DNA of 64,000 nt from Sulfurovum indicum (GTDB taxonomy: Bacteria > Campylobacterota > Campylobacteria > Campylobacterales > Sulfurovaceae), in assembly GCF_014931715.1 (NCBI RefSeq), contig NZ_CP063164.1, positions 1,426,001-1,490,000 on the forward strand, in the 5' to 3' direction. The number at the start of each line of letters is the position of its first letter. The stretch's first letter is position 1. Below the pieces are notes generated by a model. That model saw only the letters and a list, made by a program, of their open reading frames with translations. It was not told where the DNA came from and made no database searches. The position numbers were made by a program, and so were the translations under genes. Positions 12,667 through 37,562 of the stretch are shown in pieces.

Positions 12667-13371
12667 CTAATGTTTCGTGTGCAGTCCGCACTCTTTGTGT
12701 TCAGGGCTTTCCCACCACCATCTTCCTGATCGTATATCTTCACCCTCTTCAACGGCTCTGGTACAGGGTGCGCATCCTATGCTCGGGAAACCCTGGTCAT
12801 GCAGTTTGTTATAGGGGACATTGTGTTCCTTAATATACTCCCAGACCTCTTTTTCACTCCACGCTATAAGCGGATTGACCTTGATGACTTTAAACTTCTC
12901 GTCATATTCGACCAAGGGCATCTGTTGTCTTGTAACGCTTTGTTCGCTGCGTAGACCCGTGATCCAGACATCCACATCTTTCAGTGCCCTCTTAAGGGGT
13001 TCTACCTTTCTTATGTAACAGCAGTTTTTTCGTTTCTCTATACTTTCATAATGACCATTTACACCTTGCGTTCGGTAAAGCTCCTGAACACTTGACTCTT
13101 TTGGAAAATACACAGCAATTTTGGTGTTGTATTTTAAATTTGTCGCATCCAGTACATCATAGGTTTCAGGATACAGTCTTCCGGTATCCAGAGTGAAAAT
13201 ATATGCATTGGGATCTATTTTCAAGATCATATCTGTCAGAACCTGTCCCGCCGTACCTGTACTCGAGGAGAGTCCGACTCTATTTTTATACTTTTGTAAA
13301 AGATATGTCAGAATTTCATGAGCAGAAGCATTTTGAAGTTGTCTGTTCAACTCATCTATCTCTTTTTGCAT
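12667..13371 (-). CDS. cysH: APS reductase CysH, second tandem copy
   Basis: 234 residues from the ATG at 13371, which has GGAG 7 nt upstream. A longer frame reaching 13458 is rejected because it runs back through the end of the preceding cysH. Cys pairs KNCC and CAPC are the [4Fe-4S] ligands that mark APS-reducing (not PAPS-reducing) enzymes; the catalytic Cys is in ECGLH. No cysC is present, which agrees with direct APS reduction. The P-loop region reads SSSTGTAGQ, whereas the first copy reads SSSFGAEDQ. That is a change at the substrate site, so function may be altered. The last 310 bp are almost identical to the other copy. Confidence 0.85.
   Translation of the reverse strand: MQKEIDELNRQLQNASAHEILTYLLQKYKNRVGLSSSTGTAGQVLTDMILKIDPNAYIFTLDTGRLYPETYDVLDATNLKYNTKIAVYFPKESSVQELYRTQGVNGHYESIEKRKNCCYIRKVEPLKRALKDVDVWITGLRSEQSVTRQQMPLVEYDEKFKVIKVNPLIAWSEKEVWEYIKEHNVPYNKLHDQGFPSIGCAPCTRAVEEGEDIRSGRWWWESPEHKECGLHTKH
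12681..12992 (-). repeat. Homogenised 3' segment of cysH copy 2 (partner 13387-13698)
   Basis: About 312 bp match 13387-13698 at a constant offset of 706 bp, with four mismatches by eye. The 5' parts of the two genes differ far more. This abrupt change in identity indicates recent gene conversion or partial duplication. Confidence 0.9.
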
Positions 13372-14077
13372 GCTTGTCTCCTTTGTGCAGTCCACACTCT
13401 TTGTGTTCAGGGCTTTCCCACCACCATCTTCCTGATCGTATATCTTCACCCTCTTCAACGGCTCTGGTACAGGGTGCGCATCCTATGCTCGGGAAACCCT
13501 GGTCATGCAGTTTGTTATAGGGGACATTGTGTTCCTTAATGTACTCCCAGACCTCTTTTTCACTCCACGCTATCAGCGGATTGACCTTGATGACTTTGAA
13601 CTTCTCGTCATATTCGACCAAGGGCATCTGTTGTCTTGTAACGCTTTGTTCGCTGCGTAGACCCGTGATCCAGACATCCACATCTTTCAGTGCCCTCTGC
13701 AAAGGCTCTATCTTCCTTACAAAACAACAATGTTTTCTTTTTTCAATACTTTCATAATGTCCGTTGACCCCCTGCGTTCTATAGAGTGCTTCCACATTTG
13801 AAGCTTCTGGAAAATACACAGCAATTTTGGTGTTGTATTTTAAATTGGTTGCATCCATCACATCATAGGTTTCAGGATGCAGCCGCCCGGTATCAAGCGT
13901 AAATATATGCGTATCCGCATCTATATTCAATATCAGATCTGTCAAAACCTGATCTTCTGCACCAAAACTTGATGAGAGTGATACTCTATCTTTATACTTT
14001 TCCAAAAAATACTTCAGTACCTCATGCACTGAAGCATTCTGAAGTTCTTTATTAATACCTTCTATCTGTAACTGCAT
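13352..14077 (-). CDS. cysH: APS reductase CysH, first tandem copy
   Basis: 241 residues. The substrate site SSSFGAEDQ, the iron-sulfur cysteines KHCC and CAPC, and the catalytic ECGLH are intact. It reduces adenylylsulfate to sulfite with thioredoxin-type donors. The C-terminus carries ten extra residues after ECGLH because translation runs 20 nt into the second cysH, so the two frames overlap. It lies 8 bp after the DUF2061 gene in the sulfate-assimilation operon. Confidence 0.92.
   Translation of the reverse strand: MQLQIEGINKELQNASVHEVLKYFLEKYKDRVSLSSSFGAEDQVLTDLILNIDADTHIFTLDTGRLHPETYDVMDATNLKYNTKIAVYFPEASNVEALYRTQGVNGHYESIEKRKHCCFVRKIEPLQRALKDVDVWITGLRSEQSVTRQQMPLVEYDEKFKVIKVNPLIAWSEKEVWEYIKEHNVPYNKLHDQGFPSIGCAPCTRAVEEGEDIRSGRWWWESPEHKECGLHKGDKHAKRDR
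13387..13698 (-). repeat. Homogenised 3' segment of cysH copy 1 (partner 12681-12992)
   Basis: Second half of the near-identical pair, covering the shared residues from about ALKDVDVW to ECGLH. Identity drops sharply upstream of 13698. Confidence 0.9.
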
Positions 14078-30147: not shown

Positions 30148-30927
30148 TTATCTCTGGTTGAATCGGTTATTGATAAGTCTAATGGCAAAAAAGACACTAA
30201 TGGAAACCAATATCATCGATGCCGCAACAGGTGCAGAGTAACTTAATCCAAAATTTGTAAACCTATCATAGATAAGTACCGGTGCAACCATAGGATGATA
30301 CGCGATGATCACAACCGCTCCAAACTCTCCAAGTCCACGACTCCACATCATTAATGCACCATTTAAAATATCATTACGTGCATTTGGAAGGACAATGGCA
30401 AAAAAAGTACTAAGACGGCTTGCTCCAAGTGTTCTAGCCATATGTTCATATTTCACATCTACTTTTTTAAACCCCTCTTTTGCACCATTGATAAGAAATG
30501 GTGCTGAGAGAAACATCATAGCAAACATAATACCTGTAGTAGTATCCATAAACTCCAACCCCAAATCAGCAAAAAATTCACCAATCTCTCCATTACCAAA
30601 GGTCACAAGCAATGCGATACCTGCAGCGGTATGAGGCACCATCACCGGTACATCCAGCAAAGACTCAATCACAGACTTTCCCCAAAAATCATATCTAGCA
30701 ATCAGATAAGCCAAAGGGACTCCTGTAAACAATACAAACATAACGGCATAAAAAGATGTTTTCAGTGTCAAAAATATACTCTCATAAACCTCTTTATCCT
30801 GTAGGGTAGAAGCAATTTTAAATATGCCTACATTAAAAAAAAGCTGCACCAAAGGTACAAGCAGAAAAAGAGCAATTACTGCAGCCAAAAAAATAAAAAT
30901 AGTTAAAAACCCTCTGTCTTGTATCAT
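30148..30927 (-). CDS. wtpB: Tungstate/molybdate ABC transporter permease
   Basis: 259 residues with about six TM helices. The permease EAA-type loop reads ARTLGASRLSTFFAIVLPNAR near residues 165-185, as in ModB/WtpB. It forms the channel with WtpC and receives oxyanion from WtpA. The first four bases overlap wtpC (ATGA), showing translational coupling. The WtpA type of the binding protein argues for WtpB rather than classic ModB. Confidence 0.88.
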   Translation of the reverse strand: MIQDRGFLTIFIFLAAVIALFLLVPLVQLFFNVGIFKIASTLQDKEVYESIFLTLKTSFYAVMFVLFTGVPLAYLIARYDFWGKSVIESLLDVPVMVPHTAAGIALLVTFGNGEIGEFFADLGLEFMDTTTGIMFAMMFLSAPFLINGAKEGFKKVDVKYEHMARTLGASRLSTFFAIVLPNARNDILNGALMMWSRGLGEFGAVVIIAYHPMVAPVLIYDRFTNFGLSYSAPVAASMILVSISVFFAIRLINNRFNQR

Positions 30928-31901
30928 ATGAATATTACATCCTTTTTATGCATACATAAATAACACATCAGCCCTTCTTTTAATCCCAGCTTGTCAAACA
31001 TAGTTTTTGATACCTTTGCAAAAAAAGTAACATCTTGTACATGTGCAAATACTTTATAGTGATCTGTGACACCCATAACCTCATCTATACGGCAAGCAAA
31101 ACAATATTCGGTAGTGGATGAAAAGTGTGAAAAAAGTATGGCACTGGGATCAATAGAAAAAAACTTTTTATCATGTTGTGGTTCTATCATCCCGGAAGGA
31201 CATATGTTTTTATAGCCTAAAAATGTAGCCACCTCCATCGTTTTGGGATGGTTTAAAACTTCATAGGCATTGCCTACTTGAAGAATGGACCCATCTATCA
31301 TCACAGCGATCTTATCAGCTAAATATGAAGCTTCTCTAAAGTTATGCGTGACATGAATAATAGTTGTATCATAGCGTTTAACAATCTCTTTGAGTGACTT
31401 CATAATAGTATTTCTGAATGTAGGATCTACCGCGCTGAGTGGTTCATCAAGAAGTAAAAGTTTTGGTCTGGCATAAATAGCTCTTGCTATAGCAACTCTT
31501 TGTTTTTCTCCCCCACTTAAATGTTTGATACGCCTCTTTAAGAGTGGTTTGATCTCTAAAAATGTGATTACATCTTCATAAAGTTCTGACGCATTTTCTA
31601 TTTTTTTATACCGTGAAGCAAAAACAATATTTTCTTTTACCGTCATGTTTGGGAAAAGCACAAAATCCTGATAAACAAAACCAAACCCTCGTTTCTCTGG
31701 AGAAAAGTTTGTTATTTTTTTACCATCAAATACAATCTCACCTTTTATTTTTTGTATACCCGCGAGAGACTCCAATAACATGGTCTTACCACTCCCGGTT
31801 CTGCCAAGTATCACAAAGTAGGAATTCTTTTTCACCTCAAAAGAGAGATTTTTTAAAGAAAAATCTTCTTTTTTGAGATATAGCTTTTCAACATGTAACA
31901 T
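30924..31901 (-). CDS. wtpC: Tungstate/molybdate ABC transporter ATPase
   Basis: 325 residues. Walker A GRTGSGKT at about 33-40, signature LSGGEKQR, Walker B LLLLDEPLSAVDP, H-loop HVTHNF. The C-terminal 90 residues may be a regulatory domain of the MOP type. The ATG overlaps the wtpA stop by one base (TAATG). Confidence 0.88.
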   Translation of the reverse strand: MLHVEKLYLKKEDFSLKNLSFEVKKNSYFVILGRTGSGKTMLLESLAGIQKIKGEIVFDGKKITNFSPEKRGFGFVYQDFVLFPNMTVKENIVFASRYKKIENASELYEDVITFLEIKPLLKRRIKHLSGGEKQRVAIARAIYARPKLLLLDEPLSAVDPTFRNTIMKSLKEIVKRYDTTIIHVTHNFREASYLADKIAVMIDGSILQVGNAYEVLNHPKTMEVATFLGYKNICPSGMIEPQHDKKFFSIDPSAILFSHFSSTTEYCFACRIDEVMGVTDHYKVFAHVQDVTFFAKVSKTMFDKLGLKEGLMCYLCMHKKDVIFI

Positions 31902-32854
31902 TATCTGCCTAATATACTTGCATCACCTGTGATTACCGGAGGGGTTATAACACCTTGTCCGTTTCTCTTCATGATATCTTGTCCTTCAGGTGAGAGTACA
32001 AAGTTCACAAACTTCACAGCACCCTCTCTATTTTTTGGCAACCCCTCTTTTTCATTTTCAACTACAGTAATACCATAAACCATAGCTGAACCTTTTTTTG
32101 TAATGTAGCTTCCTGGTTTTTTACCTGTAATCTTAAATGTTGCACCTTTGTATGAATCACTAAACTTTTTATCTTGCAAACTGACTTCAGGTGGAAGTAC
32201 AATATATTTCAGTCCATGTTGTTCAGCAACCGATTTGTAGATGTAAAGATAATCATATACTCCTGCTTCTATCAACCCAAGCAGGTCTGTCTCTTTTGGT
32301 CTTACAATGACTTTCTCTTTACGCTCTTCTCCATTTTCATATGACTCACCGTACCCCATAAGCTTATTGTAAAAACCATCTTGTTTATAGTACTTCTCAG
32401 CTATCTTTGTGACCAAGATACTTCTATATCCACAAGGATCCATATTTGGATTGGAGTGCCCTACTTTGACACCTTCTCTTAAAAAAATATCTGTCCAGTT
32501 CTTCTCGTTGATCTCATTGGCATACTTTGATTTTGGAGTGTAGGCTATTGCCATCTCATTGGTAACAAAGTGCACATTAAACTTTGCATAATTTGGAATT
32601 AGCAAATTGTCAATCACTTTATATGCTGCACTTGCCATCACATCAGCAGGCTTGTGGATATCTGTGATTTTTCTGGCACACGCCCTGCTGCCTGCTGCTT
32701 CTCTTACCACATCATACTGAGGGTATTTTGCCTCAAATGCTTTTTCCATATCTGAAAAAGGAACTGCCAAACTTCCGGCATGAAGGACCACTACTTTCTC
32801 TTTTGCCAACCCTATGTTGGCAACCAGACTTAATGCTAATAGTACTTTTTTCAT
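31901..32854 (-). CDS. wtpA: Tungstate/molybdate-binding protein WtpA
   Basis: 317 residues with a signal peptide (1-17). HAGSLAVPF near 25-33, NPNMDPCGYRS and a YDYLYIYKS block match the WtpA family, which binds tungstate and molybdate with six-coordinate geometry. The first eight codons have been copied into a chimeric ORF by the adjacent 339-bp duplication. It would supply the metal for FdhA and the other oxidoreductases here. Confidence 0.87.
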   Translation of the reverse strand: MKKVLLALSLVANIGLAKEKVVVLHAGSLAVPFSDMEKAFEAKYPQYDVVREAAGSRACARKITDIHKPADVMASAAYKVIDNLLIPNYAKFNVHFVTNEMAIAYTPKSKYANEINEKNWTDIFLREGVKVGHSNPNMDPCGYRSILVTKIAEKYYKQDGFYNKLMGYGESYENGEERKEKVIVRPKETDLLGLIEAGVYDYLYIYKSVAEQHGLKYIVLPPEVSLQDKKFSDSYKGATFKITGKKPGSYITKKGSAMVYGITVVENEKEGLPKNREGAVKFVNFVLSPEGQDIMKRNGQGVITPPVITGDASILGR

Positions 32855-33169
32855 ATTTCTCTCCTAAAACTGGTAGTTAACTTCAAAACGCGTATCAAGT
32901 CCATCTGCATCAACCTTTTCTGTATCCTGATACCCGATTCTAAAACGTACTTGCATGCTGTCTAAACTCGGAAAGTTTTTAACAAACCCTGCATAATAGT
33001 ACATTTCATCAAAATATCCTTTACTCTCATCCGCATCAGTATAGAGTACAGACATTTGCGTGTACAAATTGTTGTAAATTCCTTTAGAGTTCCCATTACG
33101 AACAACTTCCAAACGATAACTTTTTGTATTTGCCATCCAGTTATATCGTGCCATAGAACGTGTATATCC
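32831..33169 (-). repeat. 339-bp tandem duplication, unit 1
   Basis: By eye identical to 33170-33508. It contains the first eight codons and ribosome site of wtpA, plus the last 100-odd codons of the porin gene. Confidence 0.93.
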
Positions 33170-33193
33170 TAATGCTAATAGTACTTTTTTCAT
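32864..33193 (-). pseudogene. Chimeric ORF: wtpA start fused to porin C-terminus
   Basis: 109 codons. It begins MKKVLLAL, exactly as wtpA, then continues GYTRSMARYNW to the terminal NYQF of the porin at 33203-34708. It keeps a ribosome site copied from wtpA. The product would have a half signal peptide followed by about five beta strands, so it is probably nonfunctional. It lies 9 bp after the porin stop and 9 bp before wtpA, the spacing produced by the duplication. Confidence 0.9.
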
Positions 33194-33508
33194 ATTTCTC
33201 TCCTAAAACTGGTAGTTAACTTCAAAACGCGTATCAAGTCCATCTGCATCAACCTTTTCTGTATCCTGATACCCGATTCTAAAACGTACTTGCATGCTGT
33301 CTAAACTCGGAAAGTTTTTAACAAACCCTGCATAATAGTACATTTCATCAAAATATCCTTTACTCTCATCCGCATCAGTATAGAGTACAGACATTTGCGT
33401 GTACAAATTGTTGTAAATTCCTTTAGAGTTCCCATTACGAACAACTTCCAAACGATAACTTTTTGTATTTGCCATCCAGTTATATCGTGCCATAGAACGT
33501 GTATATCC
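33170..33508 (-). repeat. 339-bp tandem duplication, unit 2
   Basis: Direct, abutting copy of 32831-33169. The length is a multiple of three (113 codons). The breakpoint shows about 1 bp of microhomology. Confidence 0.93.
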
Positions 33509-34708
33509 TGATGTTGGAAATGCTCTCCAGGGAGTAATAAGGTCAGCTTCATCCAAGACATAGGAGTAACCAAGATTGACCTTATAGTTATCTATCTTTG
33601 TTACGATTCTCGCTGCAATCATTTGTGATTCAAGTGAGGAAGCATCCTTATATCCTTGGTATGCACCTGTATGTCCGGCAAGTTGACCTCTATAGGCAGC
33701 ACCACCTATCTCTCCTGCACCATTATCAAACTGTTTAATATATCGAACACCCGGAGTAATAGAAAAACCATCCAGTTGTATTTTATAATTGGCTTCAGTC
33801 ATAACAGAAGAGAGCAGATCAGGTACTGCATAAAAAGAGGCATTGAGTTTTAGATTGGCTATAGATTTGTTTTGAATATCTCCAAGAATGAGTGGCGCAT
33901 CTGGATCTACACCCGCAGCTTTAAGTCTACTGTAGGTCAATCCTTTATGCATAGCCGTGTCATCATTTTCACTCCACTGTGGGTTGTCTGATGTTGTTGA
34001 ATTTGCATCACCTACTGCCAATACGGAATGGGCAGTACTGTGATCACGTAACTTTTGTTCATACAAATAACCCAAACGGATTTTGGTATCCGGTAGTACC
34101 TTTGTATCCATCACTACCCCATCAAAAGTATTTGGAATCATTTTTGTATCATTTGATTTTGCAAAAAAGCTTTCTACTATTTGGCGCCCTATCTTAATAT
34201 TTGTCTTCTCTATCCCTGTATATCTTAAATAGGCTTGACCAAGAACAGCTAGATTTTTACTTCCTGTATTGGTATAGTCAAAACGGCTCAAAACATCTTT
34301 CCCGGCTTTTAGTCTGTTTACAGGATCGCTATCTTCATCAAAAAATCCTCTGCTGTAATAACCGGCTAAAGTAAAATCGAAATTGGCAAAATTAGCACTT
34401 TTGAAAACCAGTGATCCTCCCAAACCAGAGACTAAATGAGAGTTTTGCTTTGGTGTTTCTGCTTCCCATTTAAAATAGAAGGTATTTGAACGTAAACGTC
34501 CATAAAACATTCCTTTACTAAAGATCTCTGAAAACCTATCTACCTTTCCCGGTAGTTGATTGTAGACTACCTGATAGTTACTTTTTAATGTATGTTTTGG
34601 CACAGTACGTTCAATCTCTTTTACTGTTATTGATTCCGCAGGTTTTATATTACCCCCTGCCATCATCATTGTTCCTGTTATGGTTGACAACACTATTATT
34701 TTTTTCAT
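33203..34708 (-). CDS. OprD-like outer-membrane porin
   Basis: 501 residues with a signal peptide (about 1-17). Alternating beta strands run throughout and the last residue is Phe (EVNYQF), as needed for outer-membrane insertion. An OprD-type block RLRSNTFYFKWE and KIGRQIVESFFAKSNDTKMIPNTFDG are visible. It heads the wtpABC genes and lies after moeA, so it may admit tungstate, molybdate or formate. This is inference from context. A TATG...CATA dyad lies upstream at 34725-34743. Confidence 0.82.
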   Translation of the reverse strand: MKKIIVLSTITGTMMMAGGNIKPAESITVKEIERTVPKHTLKSNYQVVYNQLPGKVDRFSEIFSKGMFYGRLRSNTFYFKWEAETPKQNSHLVSGLGGSLVFKSANFANFDFTLAGYYSRGFFDEDSDPVNRLKAGKDVLSRFDYTNTGSKNLAVLGQAYLRYTGIEKTNIKIGRQIVESFFAKSNDTKMIPNTFDGVVMDTKVLPDTKIRLGYLYEQKLRDHSTAHSVLAVGDANSTTSDNPQWSENDDTAMHKGLTYSRLKAAGVDPDAPLILGDIQNKSIANLKLNASFYAVPDLLSSVMTEANYKIQLDGFSITPGVRYIKQFDNGAGEIGGAAYRGQLAGHTGAYQGYKDASSLESQMIAARIVTKIDNYKVNLGYSYVLDEADLITPWRAFPTSGYTRSMARYNWMANTKSYRLEVVRNGNSKGIYNNLYTQMSVLYTDADESKGYFDEMYYYAGFVKNFPSLDSMQVRFRIGYQDTEKVDADGLDTRFEVNYQF

Positions 34709-34799: not shown

Positions 34800-36044
34800 T
34801 TATGTATTGGTATTCATACTGTCATATGTTGCAGCTGCAGGAAAACTGTCAAACAAAATAATTTTGATCATTTGATTTTCTTCTACTACTGAAACACTTT
34901 GATCAAAAACAGCCAAAGCATTACTCTCTACAATAGGCGTAAGCATACCTGAGCCATATTTGTTGTTTCTTGTTACGGTAAAGACTCCCTCATGAAGATG
35001 ACCTAACACCACATTGGCTCTACCTGGTCTTGTTTGAAAGGTTTTACAGTTTTTTGCATAGACATAAGAGTGGTGATACCTGTTATTCCCTTGCATTTTA
35101 GCAAGGATCGGTACAGAGAGAAGGATCGTATTGACCATTGCAGTCAATGGATTACCGGGCATTGCCATTACAAAGGTATTGTCCATCAGTCCCATCATGG
35201 TTGGACGACCAGGTTTTACATCGATACCATGAAAAAGCTCTCGATTTCCATTTTTAGAAAATGCTTCTGATAAAAAATCAGCATCCCCCATACTGATACC
35301 GCCTGTTGTTATAATGACGTCATAAGATTTTAGCTTGGATATAAAAGAGATGCTCTTTTCCAGACTGTCTGGCACAGAACCGACATAAGAGGCACTAAAA
35401 CCATACCCTTTAAGCAATGAGGTAACAGCAAAAGCATTGGCATTATAGATCTCATCTTCACTTGCCTCCTCCCAAGGCTCTTTTATCTCATCTCCTGATG
35501 AAACCACAGCTATTTGCAGTGGCTTATAGACTGTAGTGGCAATGATTCCCTGTGCTGAAAGCAATGCAATATGCCCGGCAGTAACTCGTTCACCTTTTTT
35601 AAACAGAATATTACCTGCTTTTTGCTCTTCACCTTTGGGTCGGAAAGCATTGCCCTCTTTTATATTTTCCGGAATCGTAACGCTATTCTCTGTTACTTTA
35701 GTACAATCTTCAATAGGTACAACAGTATCTGCATCGCCAGGCACCTGGGCTCCTGTCATGATCTTGTAGCACTCGCCTTTTTTCAGTATGGGCGAGGGTA
35801 CATCTCCTGCAAAAATAGTACCGGCAATGTTAAGCGTTTTACCTCGTTCACAGTGTTTAAAAGCAAAACCATCCATAGCAGAGTTATCAAATGAGGGCAG
35901 ATTCTTTTTAACGATAATATCTTCAGCCAAAACAGCATGTAGTGTCTGACCTAACGTAATAACTTGTGTACTTTGCTGTACCGGTGCATTTTTGAGTGCA
36001 AGGTCATAGGCCTTGGTTAAGGACAGAAAAGTAAATTTTTTCAT
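34800..36044 (-). CDS. moeA: Molybdopterin molybdenumtransferase MoeA
   Basis: 414 residues. Typical blocks: LPSFDNSAMDGFAF near 50-63, MTGAQVPGDADTVVPIE, ITTGGISMGDADF and AMPGNPLTAMVN. It inserts Mo or W into molybdopterin-AMP, the last step of cofactor synthesis. ATGA overlap of 4 bp with the regulator gene upstream, so fdhD, the regulator and moeA are one operon. Confidence 0.94.
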   Translation of the reverse strand: MKKFTFLSLTKAYDLALKNAPVQQSTQVITLGQTLHAVLAEDIIVKKNLPSFDNSAMDGFAFKHCERGKTLNIAGTIFAGDVPSPILKKGECYKIMTGAQVPGDADTVVPIEDCTKVTENSVTIPENIKEGNAFRPKGEEQKAGNILFKKGERVTAGHIALLSAQGIIATTVYKPLQIAVVSSGDEIKEPWEEASEDEIYNANAFAVTSLLKGYGFSASYVGSVPDSLEKSISFISKLKSYDVIITTGGISMGDADFLSEAFSKNGNRELFHGIDVKPGRPTMMGLMDNTFVMAMPGNPLTAMVNTILLSVPILAKMQGNNRYHHSYVYAKNCKTFQTRPGRANVVLGHLHEGVFTVTRNNKYGSGMLTPIVESNALAVFDQSVSVVEENQMIKIILFDSFPAAATYDSMNTNT

Positions 36045-36772
36045 TTTTTTGCTCCCCTGTCTTTTAGAAACAACTCTTTAAAACGTTCATTTGCATACGC
36101 TTCTATATCATCCTGCAACTGTTTGTACTTGCTGATATACTCATCTGCTTTGGGCGTTAGATGGGTTCCTCCTTCTTCACCTCTTCCTTTATGACTCTCT
36201 ACAAGGACATCATCAAGGTTTTTTTGCAGTATCTTAATGTGTGTCCACGCCTTTTTATAGCTCATACCAAGTATTTCGGCCGCTTTCGAGATAGAGCCAT
36301 GCTCTTTGATAAGCTCAAGTATTTCTGTTTTTCCTTTACCAAAAAGAAGATCTTTATTTTGATTTTCTATCCATGTTTTGGTTTTTACATACAAACGTGT
36401 TCTTTTCTTTTCTGCAAAACATCCAAGCTCACAATAAATCACATCCAGTCCACCTTTTAAAATAGCTGTACGGACAGACTTAAGATTGGATTTTCTGGCC
36501 AACTCCCTTGCATCTTTACAATAGACTCTGTCTCGATCATCTGCTATAAATTTAAGATCTTCAAAGACAACATCTTTAAACTCTCCTAGAGGCTGATTTC
36601 CAAACTGACCTAAGTCACATGCGGAAATACGCACATCCAAATCTTTTGCTCTGGTACCTACTTCCATTGCTGTCAAACGAAGTTTTGAAGCAACTTTAAA
36701 GGCATTGGCACAGGTAAGCTTTCCATCATCACCCCTGTACTTCTCTATCATTTCATCCAATTGACTAGACAT
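36041..36772 (-). CDS. modE: ModE-type transcriptional regulator with an extra N-terminal domain
   Basis: 243 residues. The DNA-binding region is at about 145-215: LIKEHGSISKAAEILGMSYKKAWTHI is the ModE/LysR-type winged helix. The first 130 residues are not a TOBE/MOP molybdate domain as in E. coli; they include CELGCFAEKK and are unrecognised. In family terms it would sense Mo or W status and control transport and cofactor genes. It overlaps fdhD by 8 nt and moeA by 4 nt. It is a candidate binder of the TATG-N9-CATA dyads. Confidence 0.75.
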   Translation of the reverse strand: MSSQLDEMIEKYRGDDGKLTCANAFKVASKLRLTAMEVGTRAKDLDVRISACDLGQFGNQPLGEFKDVVFEDLKFIADDRDRVYCKDARELARKSNLKSVRTAILKGGLDVIYCELGCFAEKKRTRLYVKTKTWIENQNKDLLFGKGKTEILELIKEHGSISKAAEILGMSYKKAWTHIKILQKNLDDVLVESHKGRGEEGGTHLTPKADEYISKYKQLQDDIEAYANERFKELFLKDRGAKK

Positions 36773-37562
36773 TGATCCTCCTTGGGTTTCTATAGATATT
36801 CATTCTTTCACCTCTGACAAAACCTATAAGCGTTAAGCCAAACTTGTCTGCTATATTCACACCTCTACAGGTTGAGGCTGTCCTTGAAGCAAGAATAGGG
36901 ATTTGGTGCATCACTGCTTTTGCAACCATTTCTGAACTAAGTCGTCCACTTACCATCAAGAAACACTTACTTACATCAATGCCCGCAAGCCTGGCTTTTC
37001 CTACTGCTTTGTCTATGGTATTATGTTGGGCTATATCTTCTCCTATAAAGTAAGTCTCTTCATCAAAATAAACTTTGGCAGTATGTACACAACCTGTCTG
37101 TTCATAAAGAGGGCATTGCCCATAAAACTTGCTCATCTCTTTAAAAAGCAAACTTGCCTCTATACTGAAATCGTCTCGCATGACCTGAGCATCAATAGCT
37201 ACAGGTGATATATGCGTACTTGCACCTCTTCCGCAGCCACTAACGATAACACCTTCCAGGTCCAATCTATCCAAACTCTCATCAATGACCTCTGCCTGAA
37301 CTATTGCTTCAAAATTTTTCTGTTCACCATCTTTATCAATAATCTCTAGCTTTGATATATCCTGTACATCTGTGATAATGTTTTCACTGATCAGATAACC
37401 AACTGTCAATTCTTTTAGATCAACAGGTACGGACATCATTGCACCGATTCTTTTTTGATTGACAAAAATTGTGAGTTTGACTTCGCGGATCACTTCATCT
37501 TTGGAAGTAAACTTTTTGCCATCTTTTATCTTTGTTACTTCGGTCTCAAAAATTGTCCACAT
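36765..37562 (-). CDS. fdhD: Formate dehydrogenase sulfurtransferase FdhD
   Basis: 265 residues. The family core is present: LTVGYLISENII, VSGCGRGAS, VHTAKVYF, GEDIAQHNTIDKAVG and SGRLSSEMVAKA. FdhD passes sulfur from IscS to the molybdopterin of formate dehydrogenase. In E. coli the active loop is CxxC; here it reads CGRG, so only the first Cys remains. First gene of the fdhD-modE-moeA operon. Confidence 0.92.
   Translation of the reverse strand: MWTIFETEVTKIKDGKKFTSKDEVIREVKLTIFVNQKRIGAMMSVPVDLKELTVGYLISENIITDVQDISKLEIIDKDGEQKNFEAIVQAEVIDESLDRLDLEGVIVSGCGRGASTHISPVAIDAQVMRDDFSIEASLLFKEMSKFYGQCPLYEQTGCVHTAKVYFDEETYFIGEDIAQHNTIDKAVGKARLAGIDVSKCFLMVSGRLSSEMVAKAVMHQIPILASRTASTCRGVNIADKFGLTLIGFVRGERMNIYRNPRRINV

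Follow-up and report, generated by a model that had tools for sequence, protein, structure and literature searches.

Template switching is one of the non-homologous routes by which a stretch of DNA can be duplicated. Once formed, tandem repeats of a few hundred base pairs can recombine, and homologous recombination can reverse the duplication. Strand slippage or gyrase have been put forward as likely non-homologous routes (PMC11721125), and in the Acinetobacter baylyi system most duplications are described as having 0–5 bp at the joint (PMC9997567). The verified duplications of a Salmonella study had at least 11 bp at the joint, and its candidates with 7 and 9 bp and one with 17 bp were not verified; these candidates had been picked for longer microhomology, and the study therefore has little bearing on joints of 0–5 bp (PMC3411829). 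A repeat may also come from assembly, as an overlap between the start and the end of a circular contig is a known assembler fault (PMC4699355, PMC6966772).

Here we describe a 339-bp tandem repeat in a 64,000-nucleotide stretch of the genome of Sulfurovum indicum, referred to below as the window. As in the A. baylyi cat amplifications (PMC9997567) and the Salmonella rearrangements (PMC3411829), so far as those reports set them out, the copies are direct and homology at the joint is short or absent. The A. baylyi amplicons, however, span 12–290 kb and were selected (PMC9997567), whereas the repeat here is 339 bp long, includes no complete gene and is not known to be under selection, and its joint has 1 bp where the verified Salmonella duplications have 11 bp or more (PMC3411829). 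With the start-end overlap errors described for circular assemblies (PMC4699355, PMC6966772) it shares a tandem copy, arbitrary endpoints and a contig with a dnaA-like gene at its start, a likeness that is not proof. The feature is ordinary in kind.

The host genome is a single contig of 2,209,694 bases and is 99.98% complete. Direct comparison within the window bears out the preliminary description of two abutting, identical units: each is 339 bp long, they are 100% identical, and the identical tract is 340 nt at period 339, the match going no further on the left and 1 bp further on the right. This full identity fits the earlier view that the repeat reflects either a very recent event or an assembly error, and an exact abutting repeat of 339 bases cannot arise by chance. 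A scan of the window (periods 20–2999, runs of at least 40 nt) found the 339-bp pair as its sole exact abutting direct repeat. The features of the locus are listed in Table 1.

Table 1. Position of the repeat units, their joint and the surrounding genes in the window.
Feature	Position	Strand	Basis or content
wtpB-like permease	30148..30927	-	best NCBIfam model WtpB, below its cut-off
wtpC-like ATP-binding protein	30924..31901	-	best NCBIfam model WtpC, below its cut-off
wtpA, intact, tungstate ABC transporter substrate-binding protein, 317 aa	31901..32854	-	NCBIfam
Tandem unit 1 (wtpA side)	32831..33169		exact repeat; porin codons 401-501 with the stop, a 9-nt spacer that carries the ribosome site, and wtpA codons 1-8
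Chimeric ORF, 109 aa: MKKVLLAL and porin 401-501	32864..33193	-	ORF translation
New joint, porin codon 401 / wtpA codon 8, 1-bp microhomology	33169..33170		
Tandem unit 2 (porin side), same sequence as unit 1	33170..33508		exact repeat
Porin, intact, 501 aa, OprD-type	33203..34708	-	weak Pfam OprD match
moeA	34800..36044	-	Pfam MoeA domains over cut-off; NCBIfam MoeA models below cut-off
modE-like regulator	36041..36772	-	NCBIfam ModE domain, below cut-off
fdhD	36765..37562	-	Pfam and NCBIfam

The repeat unit spans the end of the porin gene and the start of wtpA, in a cluster that reads on the minus strand fdhD, modE-like, moeA, porin, chimera, wtpA, wtpC-like and wtpB-like. WtpA lies above the cut-off of both NCBIfam WtpA models, and the match of the porin to Pfam OprD is weak (6.4e-07, 29.2 bits against a cut-off of 25). 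Both parent genes are complete despite the duplication. The ribosome site (TAGGAG) overlaps the stop codon of the porin, TAG, and this stop is followed by 9 nt and then an ATG; the same arrangement recurs at the end of the chimera, before wtpA.

The chimeric ORF joins WtpA residues 1–8 in frame to porin residues G401–F501 and is preceded by the copied wtpA ribosome site, so the fusion that had been proposed for this position stands. As an in-frame joint is expected by chance in one case in three, the frame itself is no evidence of anything. The 109-aa product had no Pfam or NCBIfam match at E 0.001. It retains the C-terminal Phe of the porin but turns polar after MKKVLLAL, with a best 10-residue hydropathy at the N-terminus of 0.98 vs 2.32 for WtpA and 1.82 for the porin. 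Judged by hydropathy only, the chimera has no evident signal peptide, most of one being missing, and its export is therefore unlikely.

The single-copy state, which the preliminary description had proposed looking for in relatives, is present in each of the three loci that have a porin between moeA and wtpA. WtpA is held by five of the 78 genus genomes searched, S. indicum among them, and among the other four, G007 alone carries a porin between these two genes, moeA and wtpA, in one copy. A scan of named genomes found 173 relatives, from which the best 80 loci were kept; the porin lies directly before wtpA in at least three of these best 80 of 173 (L032, L033 and L034, with L033 taken as the same contig as G007), a lower bound since the sequence available upstream of wtpA is short at some of the 80. 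Each of the three has a single copy, its porin stop and wtpA start lying 8 or 9 nt apart, and the 339-bp repeat is absent from all of them. In silico removal of one unit from the S. indicum sequence restores intact ORFs of 501 and 317 aa, 9 nt apart. The single copy in these relatives indicates that it is the ancestral state and the duplication derived. Origin from another porin copy was rejected, the next best paralogue in the genome being 42% identical. Porins of this type recur in tungstate/molybdate clusters, between moeA and wtpA in the window and in L032–L034, and directly after wtpB in two further loci (L042 and L055), where they are about 40% identical; such porins may serve as an outer-membrane channel for the oxyanion, a function that we infer from this setting.

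Microhomology at the joint is 1 bp. As 0 or 1 bp is found at 81% of positions in the same region at this spacing, which is chance level, homology did not guide the joint. A 1-bp joint also fits an artificial join and does not separate a real duplication from an artefact. Longer homology at the endpoints was considered and dropped: the longest word shared within 25 nt of both ends, ATGTTGG, is out of register by 19 nt, and 2000 random draws, in which those closer than 60 nt were scored as misses, equalled it 319 times. Ku-type end joining was rejected as a cause because a search for Ku (PF02735) gave no match in the S. indicum genome, with a positive in one of 14 control genomes (Bacillus subtilis). 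With a joint that is not homology-guided and no Ku found, non-homologous routes such as slippage or template switching remain. A joint of 1 bp falls inside the range described for A. baylyi (PMC9997567); the longer joints of the verified Salmonella duplications speak against such a route, subject to the choice of candidates in that study (PMC3411829).

We favour, with moderate confidence, a genuine tandem duplication, a two-copy event of 339 bp that is very recent, arose by illegitimate recombination and is near neutral. The locus has abutting direct copies, intact parent flanks, a single-copy ancestor and short or no homology at the joint, as a tandem duplication does, and a real event is also supported by the exactness of the repeat in a genome assembled as one contig and by the intact state of both parent genes. 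The parent state, as the relatives show, was porin, 9 nt, wtpA. Illegitimate recombination between sister strands, for example by strand slippage or template switching, with 1 bp common to the joint ends, would then have inserted a second porin tail and wtpA start between two intact genes. The chimeric ORF would be a by-product, translatable from the copied ribosome site; with the hydrophobic core cut after eight residues, the peptide would probably not be exported and would be degraded. It is probably meaningless and non-functional. The effect should be near neutral, since wtpA keeps its own start and coupling, and if the repeat is present in the cell, RecA recombination between the copies should collapse it.

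How often such repeats occur bears on whether this one is real. Background counts took exact abutting copies with a period of 50–2999 whose run reached 40 nt or more and no less than 0.9 of the period, a rule that misses diverged tandem copies. By this rule there were none in 400 kb of the S. indicum genome outside the window, and none in 826,273 bases of the best 80 of the 173 relative loci, which are mostly draft or metagenome assemblies prone to collapse tandem copies. Three single-contig genus genomes yielded one exact abutting repeat in 1.2 Mb, inside a repeat adhesin: a 588-bp exact repeat of period 606 in a 2086-aa Ig/cadherin-repeat adhesin ORF (L144 13784–14977, G001). Left out of the counts were the 7-bp arrays of L116 and L166 and a period 21 array (L162), as well as repeats that are non-abutting by the rule (among them the imperfect 82-bp array of L123, the repeat at spacing 910 of L125, and L158, L168, L171, L176 and L192).

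Other repeats were seen in the S. indicum genome. Near position 504,626 (L116 4626–4711) there are about 12 copies of a 7-bp repeat of CTTAACT type, located between what we take to be a Lon-like protease ORF and a response-regulator-like ORF. At about 1,201,785 (L123 1785–1994) lies a tandem array of period 82, imperfect but with stretches of 46–60 nt that match exactly, and at about 1,508,990 (L125 8990–9221) a direct repeat at spacing 910, made of exact blocks of 161 and 70 bp with one mismatch between them. Within the window, two neighbouring minus-strand ORFs with PAPS-reductase domains (12667–13458 and 13352–14077) have exact blocks of 146 and 100 bp in common at spacing 706 and differ in their 5' parts; the pair looks like tandem paralogues whose 3' parts were homogenised by gene conversion.

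That exact events are rare outside repeat genes in the sampled sequence brings the odds of an assembly artefact near those of a real event. We regard an artefact as almost as likely, a serious possibility a little short of an even chance. The 339 bp would in that case be an overlap kept when contig ends were joined, for example a circularisation overlap left untrimmed before rotation to dnaA, or the overlap of two joined contigs. The contig starts 78 bases before an ORF that is presumed to be dnaA because of its sequence and because dnaN-like and pyrG-like ORFs follow it; the contig was therefore probably rotated, and the scar of circularisation might be at any position. The first and last 8 kb of the present contig do not overlap; together with the dnaA-like start, this makes rotation likely without placing the old ends at the repeat. 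As in an untrimmed overlap, the copy is exact and its endpoints are unrelated to genes or repeats; they ignore gene borders, microhomology is at chance, and a lone event, with none else in the 400 kb outside the window, fits a single scar. Against an artefact, the copies are identical over 340 nt, whereas PMC4699355 describes near-identical overlaps and contig ends of low quality, and the region is otherwise without signs of misassembly, its seven cluster genes being open.

Were the duplication real but selected, the extra copy or the chimeric peptide would be kept for altered expression of wtpABC or the porin, a reading that we consider very unlikely. The tungstate/molybdate setting and an in-frame chimera with a good ribosome site speak for it, but the repeat is seen in the S. 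indicum genome and is missing from all three relatives that share its gene order, the odds of an in-frame fusion are as given above, the peptide lacks an evident signal peptide by hydropathy, and copies identical over 339 bp are too young to show a signal of selection. The context upstream of wtpA is also unchanged. The gene retains its own ribosome site, its start is as far from the preceding stop as before, and the 339 bp upstream of it are the same; with spacing and ribosome site unaltered, a large effect on wtpABC is not predicted, and the suggestion in the preliminary description that wtpABC expression might change is left without support. In the copied sequence, nothing but weak promoter-like matches resembles a regulatory element; between 32700 and 36100 such matches number 13 vs 9.5 ± 3.0 expected and are thus not above chance. 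Terminator-like matches over the same interval are above chance (6 vs 1.9 ± 1.3), with none inside either repeat unit, and a copied promoter or terminator was rejected on these grounds. A fainter prospect still, hardly to be credited, is that the chimera is a newly born gene, in which a porin tail that keeps the C-terminal aromatic residue has come under the ribosome site of a metal transporter; if partly periplasmic, it could engage the machinery of outer-membrane assembly and reduce the amount of porin, and it would also space the porin from wtpA in the operon. Phase variation, in which copy number would switch wtpA or the porin on or off, is practically negligible as an explanation. Repeats of this size can recombine, and the genome holds a 7-bp tandem array elsewhere, but judged by frame, either copy number leaves the porin and WtpA whole and in frame, and the state in the three relatives is a single copy.

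For the annotation of S. indicum, the 109-aa ORF should not be treated as a genuine gene family, and the repeat site in the genome deserves a check for an assembly scar. If real, the repeat would be a clean case of a short duplication that makes an in-frame fusion ORF and leaves its parent genes unharmed.
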